From positions 1 to 41,557 of the IMG/VR virus record IMGVR_UViG_3300032331_002119: a DNA stretch of 41,557 nucleotides; one strand, 5' to 3'. The notes below the pieces were generated by a model. That model had not been told where the DNA came from. It did no database searches and saw nothing but the letters and a program-made list of their open reading frames with translations. Source of the DNA: a virus. The position numbers and the translations under genes are program-made. This document shows, one piece after another, positions 8,971 to 38,307 of the stretch. The first letter of the stretch is position 1. Each line of letters starts with the position of its first letter.

Positions 8971-11748
8971 ATGCCAGTTGGAATTGGATCAACTCAGATT
9001 ACTGGTATTAGTGTAGTTGCTAATCCAACAGACGCTGCTTCAAAAAGTTATGTAGATTCTGCTAGTAGTGGTGGTGGATTACCATCTATTATTAGTAATG
9101 AAAATGAGTTTTTATTTACGGATGGTTCGAGTGCATCTTGGGAACCAATAGGAGCATATCAAGAATATACAACGCCTGGAAATTATACATTTACTGTGCC
9201 GATACAAGCAAAAGAACTATTCATAGAAGCAACAGGTGCTGGAGGAGGCGGAGCATCTGGAACGACTAATACTAGTTCTTATGCAAATCAAGGTGTATTT
9301 TGGTTTTTAAGAACTTCTGGAACAGGAAATGCTTTTGGGGGAGTTCAAAATACTTTTCCTGCAGCAGTATATGATGGAACTAATTATATTTTTGTTGGCA
9401 GCACTGGGACTGTTTTAACTTCTACCGATACAATCACCTGGGTTTTGAGAACTTCTGGATTTGGAACATCAGTAATATACTCAATTGCATATGCCTCAAA
9501 TTTAACTGAAAAATATTTCATTGGATCTCAAACTGGATCTTGCAGAACTTCAACAGATTTAATCACTTGGACTTTAAGAACTTTAGGAATCAGTGCTGGA
9601 GGTGCCATAAACACTGTAATGTATGGAAATGGATTTTATGTTCTTGCTGAAGATACTGGTTCTACAACTAGGGCATCTACTGATGGTATTAGTTGGCAAC
9701 TTAGAACTACTACATCTTTAGGTATTTTTCCATATTCTTCCACTTATGCTGCTGGATATTATGTTATTGGTGGATCAGGTGGTCGTTTAATAACTTCTAC
9801 TGATACTATCTCTTGGGCTGTAAGGACAGTTCCATTTGCTGCGACTGCCACAAATGGTTTAACATATGGAAATGGAATATATCTTGCTGTAAATGCTAAT
9901 TCTCAGGTTGCAACTTCTACAGATACAATCACTTGGATTGCAAGAACAACTGGAAATGCATCTGCAATTTGTTATTCCGTTCATTATGGTGCAAACCTAT
10001 ATGTTTTGGGTATTAGTGGTGGCATTGTTAGAACATCTACAGATGGAATTACCTGGTTTTTAAGAACTTCAAAGGTTGCAGCAGTTGGTGCCACAATGTA
10101 TGGAAATAATATTCATGTTTATTCAAATACCAGTGGAGCAATATCTGTATCACCATATCCTTCTGGACTTGCTGGTAGCGGCGGTGGGGGAGGAGCATCG
10201 GTATCATGGAATATTTCAAAGGCATATATCAGCAGTTCATCTCTTACTGTGAATGTTGGATCTGGTGGAACTCCTGGAACTGCAGGTGCGGCAACCACAG
10301 TATCATGGACTGGACCTGGAGGATCTTTTTCCTTAACCGCAAATGGTGGAAGTGGTGGATCAAACACTTATAGTTCTTTATCTGCCGTGACTCTAGGAGG
10401 ATCTGGAGGAACAATCACATCAGTGTCAAACTATTTACATGCAACTGCTGGAACTGCTGGTGGTAATGGTGGAGTTTTTGATAATAGTATTGGTGCAAGT
10501 ACTAGTGAGCAAGGTACTAGTGCTACTGCAGGAACAACTGCAACTTTACCTTTTCAAACAACAGGAGGAGGTGGTGGAGTATCTAGTTATCTTTATGGAA
10601 CGGCAAATACTTCTGGTGGAACGATTAACTATTATGGAAATACTGCTGTAACTTCCGAATCTACTGCTGGTATTGTAACCACATCCAGTTCAACTGCAAT
10701 AACTGGTCTTTCTTATGGTGCTGGTGGTTCTGGTGGTGGAGCGCAATATGGACCTGTTGCCTGGAGATTAAGAACTTCTGGATTTGGTGTAACTTCTTAT
10801 GCAGTAACTTATGGTGCTGGACTATACATTAATACTGGTTCTACTGGAAGATTATCCACATCTACTGATACAATCACTTGGATTCAAAGAACTTCTGGAT
10901 TTGGTACAACTAACATTTTTGGAGTCGCATATGGGGGAAATCTTTATGTTGCAACAGGAGGTTTGGGAACCATAACTGCATCTACAAATGCTATTGTGTG
11001 GAGTTTAAGAACTTCTGGAACAACAAACTTGATTGGAACTAATATTAATATGGGACCTACAACGATCTATGCAAATGGACAATACATGTCTGGTGGAGCA
11101 TCTGGATTGTTTATTTTTTCGACTGATTCAATTGCTTGGACTTTAAGAACAACTGGATTTGGTACAACTGATACTTGGTCAGTTGCTTATGGTGATTTAC
11201 CAAGTTCCACATATGTAATTAGTAGTGGTTCTGGATTGCTCAGAACTTCTACTGATACGATCAACTGGACATTGAGAACGAGTGGACTTGGTACAAATGC
11301 TCTTAACTCTATTCTTTATCAAAATGGGATTTATTGTATTGCTGGTAATGCTGGTACTGTTGCATCATCGACGGATGCTATTTCATGGACACCCAGGGTA
11401 TTTTCGCCAGTATTTGCTGTTTATTCGGGTGCAGTTGGTGATGGTAAATTTGTTTTTGGCACACAAACTGGATCACTTTTTAGTTCAGTTGATGGTACTC
11501 GATGGATTTTAAGAACTGCTGGAGTTGGTTCTATAAATGCATTTGCATTTGGATATGGTAATGGACTATTTTTTGGAACTTATGGTGCAGCGTCTTCTTT
11601 ATCAGTTGCATCTTCAGTTCTTGCCGCAAATGGTGGTAATGGTGTTCGCGGAGGTGGTGGTGGAGGAGGAGGTTTTGAGAATACCACAGCAACTGCTGGA
11701 ACTGGTGGAACTGGTGGTGATGGTTATGTTCGTATTAGTTGGCAATAA
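8971..11748 (+). CDS. Tail adhesin paralogue 1: glycine-rich scaffold with two seven-blade Asp-box propellers
   Basis: A 925-aa product. A GAGGAG Shine-Dalgarno (8958-8963) lies 7 bases before ATG. The N-terminus contains NPTDAASKSYVDS, a motif common at attachment ends of phage fibre proteins and shared by the next two genes. A glycine-rich domain begins near residue 64 (YTFTVP strand, then GAGGGG) and is interrupted twice by blades of the form W-[TV]-LRTSGFG ... Y-GxxYVxxG-xxG-x-L-x-STDxIT-W. Residues about 111-393 hold seven blades and about 598-880 hold seven more. The end is GVRGGGGGGGG then GGDGYVRISWQ. The STDxxTW strand-turn resembles the Asp-box of BNR/Ycf48-type propellers. It follows the S74 fibre as gp38-type adhesins follow gp37. 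Receptor recognition is inferred. Confidence 0.75.
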   Translation: MPVGIGSTQITGISVVANPTDAASKSYVDSASSGGGLPSIISNENEFLFTDGSSASWEPIGAYQEYTTPGNYTFTVPIQAKELFIEATGAGGGGASGTTNTSSYANQGVFWFLRTSGTGNAFGGVQNTFPAAVYDGTNYIFVGSTGTVLTSTDTITWVLRTSGFGTSVIYSIAYASNLTEKYFIGSQTGSCRTSTDLITWTLRTLGISAGGAINTVMYGNGFYVLAEDTGSTTRASTDGISWQLRTTTSLGIFPYSSTYAAGYYVIGGSGGRLITSTDTISWAVRTVPFAATATNGLTYGNGIYLAVNANSQVATSTDTITWIARTTGNASAICYSVHYGANLYVLGISGGIVRTSTDGITWFLRTSKVAAVGATMYGNNIHVYSNTSGAISVSPYPSGLAGSGGGGGASVSWNISKAYISSSSLTVNVGSGGTPGTAGAATTVSWTGPGGSFSLTANGGSGGSNTYSSLSAVTLGGSGGTITSVSNYLHATAGTAGGNGGVFDNSIGASTSEQGTSATAGTTATLPFQTTGGGGGVSSYLYGTANTSGGTINYYGNTAVTSESTAGIVTTSSSTAITGLSYGAGGSGGGAQYGPVAWRLRTSGFGVTSYAVTYGAGLYINTGSTGRLSTSTDTITWIQRTSGFGTTNIFGVAYGGNLYVATGGLGTITASTNAIVWSLRTSGTTNLIGTNINMGPTTIYANGQYMSGGASGLFIFSTDSIAWTLRTTGFGTTDTWSVAYGDLPSSTYVISSGSGLLRTSTDTINWTLRTSGLGTNALNSILYQNGIYCIAGNAGTVASSTDAISWTPRVFSPVFAVYSGAVGDGKFVFGTQTGSLFSSVDGTRWILRTAGVGSINAFAFGYGNGLFFGTYGAASSLSVASSVLAANGGNGVRGGGGGGGGFENTTATAGTGGTGGDGYVRISWQ
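9301..10149 (+). repeat. Propeller block 1a: 7 blades
   Basis: Seven imperfect repeats of about 40 aa, counted by the blade-opening Trp-x-x-Arg-Thr. The block is inserted after the first GAGGGG of the glycine-rich domain (loop site B in the findings). Confidence 0.75.
10762..11610 (+). repeat. Propeller block 1b: 7 blades
   Basis: Seven further blades, inserted just before the terminal poly-Gly segment (loop site D). The seventh opens with SVDGTRW in place of STDxxTW. Confidence 0.75.
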
Positions 11749-37888: not shown

Positions 37889-37917
37889 TTGACTAAATAT
37901 CCAAGATGAGGTATAAT
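37889..37917 (+). promoter_or_regulatory. Near-consensus sigma70 promoter
   Basis: TTGACT (-35, 37889-37894), a 17-base spacer and TATAAT (-10, 37912-37917). The -10 sits in a small palindrome (GAGGTATAATACCTC, 37909-37923). Transcription should begin at about 37924, giving a 54-base leader before the next ORF. This is the strongest host-type promoter in the window and suggests early expression. Confidence 0.85.
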
Positions 37918-37923
37918 ACCTCC

Positions 37924-37977
37924 ACGTTCAACCCGTAAGGGTCGGAAGTAAGCCGACGCGGAACGGATCGTTCATCT
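37924..37977 (+). promoter_or_regulatory. Structured mRNA leader with competing hairpins
   Basis: ACCC-GTAA-GGGT (37931-37942, GNRA-type loop) overlaps GTCGG/CCGAC (37941-37957). GAACG (37961-37965) can pair either with CGTTC just before the start codon (37969-37973) or with an identical CGTTC at the 5' end (37925-37929). No open frame covers the leader. The arrangement looks switch-like; the ligand, if any, is unknown. Confidence 0.55.
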
Positions 37978-38130
37978 ATGGAAACGCTCTTACTTAGTTG
38001 TTTACAAGCAAAGTTAATTCTTGGAAGAGTTATGAAGGCAAATATGCCTCCACAAACTCGCAACGACTTAATTTGGGAAATCAAACAGATTACTCCCAAA
38101 GAGTGCAAAATAGACGCAACCGCCGACTGA
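37978..38130 (+). CDS. 50-aa leader-type or small regulatory peptide
   Basis: The ORF runs from the ATG at 37978 to TGA at 38128-38130. The product begins METLLLSCLQAKLILGRVM, a hydrophobic, possibly amphipathic helix, and continues PPQTRNDLIWEIKQITPKEC with an acidic end. It is the first ORF after the sigma70 promoter and the structured leader. It has no classical Shine-Dalgarno, and its start lies right after a hairpin arm. Part of its coding sequence (37993-38004) is complementary to the ribosome-binding site of the next gene, so its translation may control that gene. No family is recognised. Short ORFs of this kind are common in phage early regions. Confidence 0.6.
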   Translation: METLLLSCLQAKLILGRVMKANMPPQTRNDLIWEIKQITPKECKIDATAD

Positions 38131-38159
38131 AGGAACGCTCTTTAACCTAAACAACTAAG
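37993..38159 (+). promoter_or_regulatory. Long-range inverted repeat covering the next gene's ribosome-binding site
   Basis: CTTAGTTGTTTA (37993-38004) is the exact reverse complement of TAAACAACTAAG (38148-38159). The right arm overlaps AAGGAG at 38157-38162, so pairing would hide part of the Shine-Dalgarno. A related stretch, GGAACGCTCTT, also recurs near both arms. Confidence 0.55.
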
Positions 38160-38170
38160 GAGAAAACCTA

Positions 38171-38275
38171 ATGTCAAAAGTAAAACCATCTATTAATGTA
38201 CTTCAACTCATTAAAGAGAAGAAGCAAAAAGAAGACCGCAAACATCAAGCAAAACTAGCAATGGCGATGCGCTGA
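38171..38275 (+). CDS. 34-aa basic peptide
   Basis: The ORF runs from the ATG at 38171, 8 bases after AAGGAG (38157-38162), to TGA at 38273-38275. The product MSKVKPSINVLQLIKEKKQK and on is Lys-rich, with an amphipathic helix and a Met/Ala end. It is followed at once by a strong terminator, so it is the last gene of the short early unit that starts at 37889. The good ribosome-binding site and the terminator placement support a real gene. A small host-takeover or nucleic-acid-binding peptide is possible; the sequence does not show which. Confidence 0.65.
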   Translation: MSKVKPSINVLQLIKEKKQKEDRKHQAKLAMAMR

Positions 38276-38281
38276 TATTCT

Positions 38282-38307
38282 GGAGGGATTGATTCCCTCC
38301 TTTTTTT
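38282..38307 (+). terminator. Rho-independent terminator
   Basis: GGAGGGA (38282-38288) and TCCCTCC (38294-38300) form a perfect 7-bp stem around TTGAT, followed by seven T. It closes the early unit. Confidence 0.92.

Follow-up and report, generated by a model that had tools for sequence, protein, structure and literature searches.

The window analysed here (a 41,557-nt stretch of viral DNA; all window features given below lie on the + strand) carries, in front of a 50-codon gene, a short leader with repeated complementary segments, and the question it raises is which of these segments pair and what kind of RNA they build. An earlier note had placed a candidate switch at 37889-37980, in which one GAACG would pair with either of two CGTTC segments and thereby hide or expose the start codon. 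Its starting points hold. Sequence and promoter scan agree on a near-consensus sigma70-type promoter (TTGACT-17-TATAAT, 37889-37917, 11 of 12 consensus matches), with the -35 box TTGACT at 37889, a 17-nt spacer and the -10 box TATAAT at 37912-37917, and on a 54-base leader that runs from a transcript start predicted near 37924 to the ATG at 37978; the repeated segments are indeed present, CGTTC at 37925-37929 and 37969-37973, GAACG at 37961-37965.

That this is a regulatory RNA was also borne out, the kind being a riboswitch: positions 37923-37969 match the Rfam glutamine riboswitch RF01739 at 32.6 bits (E = 2.9e-5, 491 nt searched). The Rfam search thus identifies the family while remaining under its cut-off of 35, so that a whole-window scan at the gathering score is silent at the leader, because the 3' half of the motif lies behind the gene. 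Since gene-less relatives (L045, L008 and L026) exceed the cut-off with 41-44 bits across both halves, the window's element is best termed a variant rather than a plain member. The folding energy of the isolated leader is ordinary (z = -0.42). As for the two inner hairpins described previously, both exist in the window sequence, but only ACCC GTAA GGGT at 37931-37942 is kept, as helix P2 of the aptamer; GTCGG...CCGAC at 37941-37956, which overlaps it, is not conserved, its bases corresponding in relatives to the aptamer junction strand CG(G/C)AAGUAA. Judged from sequence comparison, the element is likely to be a glutamine-I (glnA) riboswitch of a T4-like cyanophage, whose aptamer consists of two interleaved units and encloses a whole small gene in one hairpin.

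Relatives were collected by blastn against phage records (222 matches, mostly cyanophages, nine of which were read in detail) and by five IMG/VR pattern scans, which together with the phage records gave at least 325 unique elements. Megablast of the first 20 kb of the window against phage records found no close relative, and a scan of bacterial genomes with the pattern CGGAACGN{2,6}CGTTCAT was discarded, the pattern being so short that chance matches came from all phyla. In the nine relatives read, the element starts with CGUUCA-P2-CG(G/C)AAGUAAG-P3-CGGAACG and, after a short spacer, continues with CGUUCA-P2'-GACGCAAA-P3-CUGAAGGAACG. P2' is a small hairpin in L004, L007 and L008, and its loop holds a gene in other phages including the window. 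The sequenced phages P-SSM2 and P-SSM4 are among the carriers. Among the matches listed, a gene-size loop is confined to P2' in 162 of the 325 elements and to P2 in 24; 54 elements have such loops in both hairpins, and 85 have none. The gene-in-aptamer arrangement is common, occurring in hundreds of viral contigs.

In the window, the proposed element extends from 37925 to about 38162, so that the interval 37889-37980 was too short. Its 5' half would precede the gene and comprises the P1 5' strand CGUUC (37925-37929, aptamer bases 1-5), the P2 hairpin ACCC-GUAA-GGGU (37931-37942), the junction strand CGGAAGUAA (37943-37951) and the P3 5' strand GCCGACG (37952-37958). Between the halves lie the P4 hairpin GAACG-GAU-CGUUC (37961-37973), with a loop able to serve as a Shine-Dalgarno sequence, and P2', which would take up the start codon: its 5' strand UCUAU (37975-37979), the last two bases of which are the AU of that codon, is complementary to AUAGA at 38110-38114, on the other side of the gene. 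The inner junction strand CGCAAC follows (38115-38120). The 3' half, i.e. the P3 3' strand CGCCGAC (38121-38127), the junction UGAAG (38128-38132), the P1 3' strand GAACG (38133-38137, the predicted partner of 37925-37929) and base 60 (C38138), would overlap the last codons of the gene, its stop codon and the bases behind it. The switch therefore extends past the leader, since the 5' CGTTC finds its partner in a second GAACG beyond the 50-codon gene. P1 is ended by a long-range pair that we take to be number 23:60, which in the window is G37945:C38138; its inner equivalent is C38117 with G37966.

Compensatory changes in homologues, the test that the earlier note had itself put forward, are present. 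Covariation was scored, without a tree, on 80 columns and 177 distinct rows (3160 column pairs, among the matches listed), the effective sequence number on the structural columns being about 12 at 90% identity. Twelve of the 13 top scores fell on proposed pairs (among the matches listed), namely those of P2, P2', P3, the outer 23:60 pair and its inner equivalent, with P2 columns among the top covarying pairs of the 3160. The 19 natural gene-less relatives among the matches listed had 95.3% of paired cells paired, 10 pairs changed on both sides (including all three counted P2 pairs), and a covariation score of 0.250, as against 0.073 when shuffled and at most 0.070 when the partners were slid. 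The outer 23:60 pair is CG in 223 elements, GC in 101 and broken in one (325 among the matches listed); in the 127 distinct gene-carrying rows among these matches it is CG in 113 and GC in 14, so that every row has it intact although a gene of about 150 nt lies in between. Indeed, P2, P2', P3 and P4 covary, mostly across the gene. Whole P2' stem sequences are swapped around it, as with GAUUAUG/CAUAAUC in L269; a reading of this gene-flanking stem as part of a mobile element was rejected, as its sequence differs between phages and covaries. P3 occurs between the units as CU/AG, CA/UG, CG/CG, UCG/CGA and UCA/UGA, with A.C mismatches in the window's class. The P1 strands are invariant (325 elements among the matches listed), which is consistent with a three-way junction and gives no covariation signal of its own; the search patterns, which fix parts of P1, contribute to this invariance. 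P1 rests on the 23:60 pair, P3 and homology, and is consistent with the data rather than independently proven.

The features expected of a glutamine aptamer lie at the corresponding places. Alignment, rather than structure, maps the glutamine-site bases C1, G2, G22, C58 and G59 to 37925, 37926, 37944, 38136 and 38137, and a loop E motif is recognized by sequence in AGUA (37948-37951) and GAA (38129-38131), the latter within UGAAG and with its G replaced by A in relatives whose stop codon is UAA. The same contact bases recur in the inner junction, which also has a 23:60-type pair of its own (CG in 311 and GC in 3 of the 325 elements among the matches listed). In the solved aptamer (PMC6698751), the glutamine site includes bases 1 and 2, and a long-range pair ends P1.

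The nested gene (37978-38130, 50 codons, METLLLSCLQA...ECKIDATAD) stops at a UGA inside the aptamer strand CUGAAGG. This position is typical: among the matches listed, all 216 gene-size P2' loops have an ATG at most 10 nt from the helix, and in 205 of the 216 the frame ends inside CUGAAGG, directly before AGGAAC (canonical cases have UGA or UAA as the stop, with AGGAAC next to it). The body of the gene shows protein-like evolution, with 4026 synonymous and 2283 non-synonymous single-base codon differences among the matches listed, whereas the last five codons evolve as RNA (7 synonymous versus 133 non-synonymous, among the same matches). Likewise, Asp is GAC in nearly all tail codons and GAT in 312 of 415 body codons (among the matches listed). 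The near absence of synonymous change means that the RNA dictates the C-terminus of the protein. The same follows from members of the nested protein family, phrog_504, that lie elsewhere in phage genomes (L451, L452) and do not have the DAND/DAKAD end, which the RNA thus imposes. PHROG assigns no function to this family, which the window copy matches weakly (E = 0.022), and Pfam has no family for the nested protein. The nested proteins have two conserved cysteines, and AlphaFold2 predicts a plain two-helix hairpin (pLDDT 81, pTM 0.58). At the level of sequence, covariation and codon statistics establish the architecture, the nesting and the RNA constraint on the end of the gene. To our knowledge, genes inside riboswitch aptamers have not been described. 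In the element, two codes plainly act on a single stretch of RNA, the aptamer writing the C-terminus of a protein.

Of 172 elements that carry a nested gene, 102 have GGAG in the P4 loop; of 71 that carry none, not one has it (among the matches listed). In the UCG class, the figures are 101 of 104 with the gene and 0 of 20 without (same matches), and because GGAG occurs there only with the nested gene, the loop is probably the gene's Shine-Dalgarno sequence in that class. The window's loop, GGAU, is a poor one.

Small genes of other families are found in P2, encoding HWTMTCQEW... proteins and phrog_6471 (L006 2301-2501, L010, L028, L039, L067 and others), and some P2-nested genes end at the UAA in CGCAAGUAAG of the junction strand. 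One protein type occurs both in P2 of L053 and in P2' of L017, which indicates that the genes behave like cassettes. A further insert between the units, in the P4 loop region, is flanked by complementary ATTAG/CTAAT in L286 (about 2400-2500) and L327 (about 9172-9290, minus strand). L339 (minus strand, from 612) has no second unit; its first unit is directly followed by a longer ORF that includes a YIGSR segment. This ORF is possibly GIY-YIG endonuclease-like, and the case may be a homing insertion.

Behind the aptamer, CUCUUUA (38138-38144) pairs with UAAGGAG (38156-38162), a candidate expression platform (38138-38162) that covers the Shine-Dalgarno sequence of the next gene. The first base of this helix is aptamer base 60, and base 60 can therefore sit either in the 23:60 pair or in the Shine-Dalgarno helix. 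A 7-9 bp helix starting at base 60 over the downstream Shine-Dalgarno sequence was found in 51 of 57 distinct leaders of the window's class (among the matches listed). Over all classes, the accessibility of this Shine-Dalgarno sequence did not differ from that with shuffled upstream sequence (0.39 versus 0.37), and the claim is accordingly limited to the window's class. With its 34 codons, the downstream gene (38171-38275) is similar to the C-terminal portion of small YRG (DUF4278-like) phage proteins. It matches phrog_545 weakly (E = 0.041), while its relative in L008 matches at 1.2e-36 and also hits DUF4278 at 9.4e-5. It would thus encode a small YRG/DUF4278-like protein to which no function is assigned, and the same kind of gene stands behind some cyanobacterial aptamers. 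An intrinsic terminator followed by a run of T closes the unit (38282-38300).

These elements suggest a mechanism. Bound glutamine would hold base 60 in the 23:60 pair and weaken the helix over the downstream Shine-Dalgarno sequence, turning the downstream gene on, as proposed by analogy with the cyanobacterial hosts. The same fold would turn the nested gene off, because its start codon and Shine-Dalgarno sequence lie in P2' and P4. Conversely, ribosomes on the nested gene would traverse the 3' half and end on a stop codon inside the aptamer, so that inner-gene translation and sensing would exclude each other. In its full form, this model has two predicted glutamine sites in oppositely oriented junctions that share one helix, and a toggle in which the inner gene is off when the downstream gene is on, and inner translation destroys the sensor. 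We put it forward tentatively, as a possibility that is itself somewhat doubtful; if true, it would make the element a riboswitch controlled by the gene it contains. One RNA stretch must here both fold as a sensor and be read by ribosomes, and the system allows the competition between translation and ligand sensing to be studied.

The element might instead be a structured RNA that descends from a glutamine riboswitch and senses no glutamine, with a role, for example, in stabilizing or processing the RNA or in coupling the translation of the two genes; the nested gene would then be a passenger. The gene does interrupt the sensor, which ribosomes would disturb, and the calculated energies are unfavourable to the fold: -53.7 kcal/mol for the full transcript with the proposed fold enforced, compared with -64.2 when folded freely and -61.1 with the 5' pairing of the earlier note. 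The proposed fold would hence depend on the ligand, on tertiary contacts or on the order of co-transcriptional folding; thermodynamic predictions, made for the leader as well as for the whole transcript, were set aside as a guide, being uninformative with energies against that fold. However, the outer junction retains C1, G2, G22, C58, G59 and the 23:60 pair, and the Shine-Dalgarno helix starting at base 60 is retained as well; a passive scaffold need not keep these features, and we regard this explanation as unlikely.

Two ordinary tandem aptamers, each folding on itself (37925-37965 and 37969-38137), are much harder to sustain. In their favour, the two units nearly repeat each other, single units can be aligned by Rfam, and glnA RNAs in tandem have been described (PMC2864571). 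Yet the first unit has no GAAG and base-60 context, the second no AGUAA and P3, and the P3 and 23:60 pairs covary between units, not within them. The P4 helix bears on the same point: among the 109 listed matches found by their 3' half only, eight show a double change to CAACG/CGUUG and none a single change, and these double changes break the within-unit P1 helices. Given them and the inter-unit covariation, the repeats do not form two complete aptamers that each fold within their own sequence.

The same eight relatives make a switch confined to the leader at least as hard to maintain. In that switch, the start of the first gene would be exposed or hidden depending on which partner the GAACG at 37961 takes, the 5' CGTTC or the one just ahead of the ATG. 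The sequence permits either pairing, and the two repeats are conserved, but the 5'-most CGTTC is unchanged wherever read correctly (109 elements found by their 3' half only, among the matches listed), so that the first pairing is broken in the relatives with CAACG/CGTTG. Moreover, the aptamer geometry of the 5' segment is closed by bases behind the gene. Because GAACG and the second CGTTC change jointly while the 5' CGTTC stays, the nested hairpin P4 is the kept pairing, and the 5' CGTTC goes with the GAACG behind the gene. A GAACG that chooses between two CGTTC partners is therefore, given the P4 double changes and the 23:60 pair, not what evolution has kept.

A glutamine-II (Downstream-peptide, RF01704) riboswitch before a small peptide gene has next to no chance of being the right reading: that family too precedes small ORFs (PMC2864571) and matches weakly in the window (14.0 bits), and L005 narrowly passes the cut-off (33.1 bits), but the window scores 32.6 bits for glutamine-I and stays below the RF01704 gathering score of 33 bits, its AGUA/GAA junction and its 3' half, CUGAAGGAACGC, are characteristic of glutamine-I, and no covarying downstream pseudoknot arm was seen in these elements. 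The two families share a ligand environment in solved structures (PMC6698751), and glutamine-II is likewise cyanobacterial and next to small ORFs; it differs in its pseudoknot architecture and in having its ORF behind the aptamer, not inside.

With glutamine-I proper (RF01739), the preferred reading shares the P1-P2-P3 junction, the glutamine-contact bases, the long-range pair closing P1, the AGUA/GAA motif, the Shine-Dalgarno helix right behind P1 and, as in some cyanobacteria, a small YRG (DUF4278-like) gene downstream. By contrast, the phage P3 forms no hairpin; it leads into a second junction (P4, P2') of reversed orientation, which is built by repeating the same sequence. The phage element has one or two hairpins holding whole genes, and a stop codon is part of the aptamer. 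Like tandem glnA aptamers (PMC2864571) and other tandem riboswitches, it has two near-repeats in one leader, but these are interleaved, the first 5' strand with the second 3' strand and one shared P3, rather than side by side.

Glutamine is the main nitrogen signal of cyanobacteria, and the element suggests that phages read host glutamine during infection. Glutamine riboswitches in cyanophages are known (PMC9964418, PMC9602691, PMC10665884) and, in the excerpts available, those of cyanophages and marine phages are described as ordinary (PMC9964418, PMC9004378); the S-CREM1 glnA RNA (99 nt, 44 bits; same two sources) is the gene-less form of the present element (L004). No description of the interleaved double junction and its inner genes was found in the accessible excerpts of the open-licence literature on glutamine riboswitches; by these excerpts, they are what is new here beside the known cyanophage riboswitches and tandem glnA RNAs.

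Rfam misses most cases of the arrangement, as the gene divides the motif. At the gathering score, three of 12 gene-carrying loci barely reach glutamine-I via the wrong 3' half, one is called glutamine-II and eight have no glutamine match. Similarly, a covariance model of the gene-less form found the site in the window (9.2e-7) and aligned the wrong 3' half, leaving the gene unbridged. In hosts, 14 of 386 sampled cyanobacterial genomes matched the model, a count obtained with stricter filters and a model blind to the gene-split form. Those host sites that were read hold one ordinary aptamer each, 52-65 nt long and in most cases with P3 as a hairpin, in the layout GAACG-CGCCUC...GAGGCG-AUG, where CGCCUC pairs with the GAGGCG before the ATG; some precede YRG-type genes, as in phages. 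One cyanobacterium (G171, contig 2, near 1066803-1067464; L439/L443) has three successive glutamine-I riboswitches about 300 nt apart, at least two of which stand before genes that start with MTLRYRGA (YRG type). Note also that manA RNAs (RF01745) occur in the same phage contigs as the glutamine element (L005 2957-3142, L035 2033-2229, L049 1640-1839), the distance being about 600 nt or less in L005 and L035.

Finally, the -10 box of the window lies within an inverted repeat, GAGGTAT A ATACCTC (37909-37923), to which no function is assigned. A perfect inverted repeat of at least 6 bp is found in 64% of 217 distinct upstream regions and in 6% of shuffles, and one with arms of at least 5 bp in 81%, against 19% at other sigma70-like sites in the same contigs (both among the matches listed). 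The arms differ between phages yet stay complementary, with at least 59 distinct arm sequences, and the predicted transcript start falls just behind the repeat.
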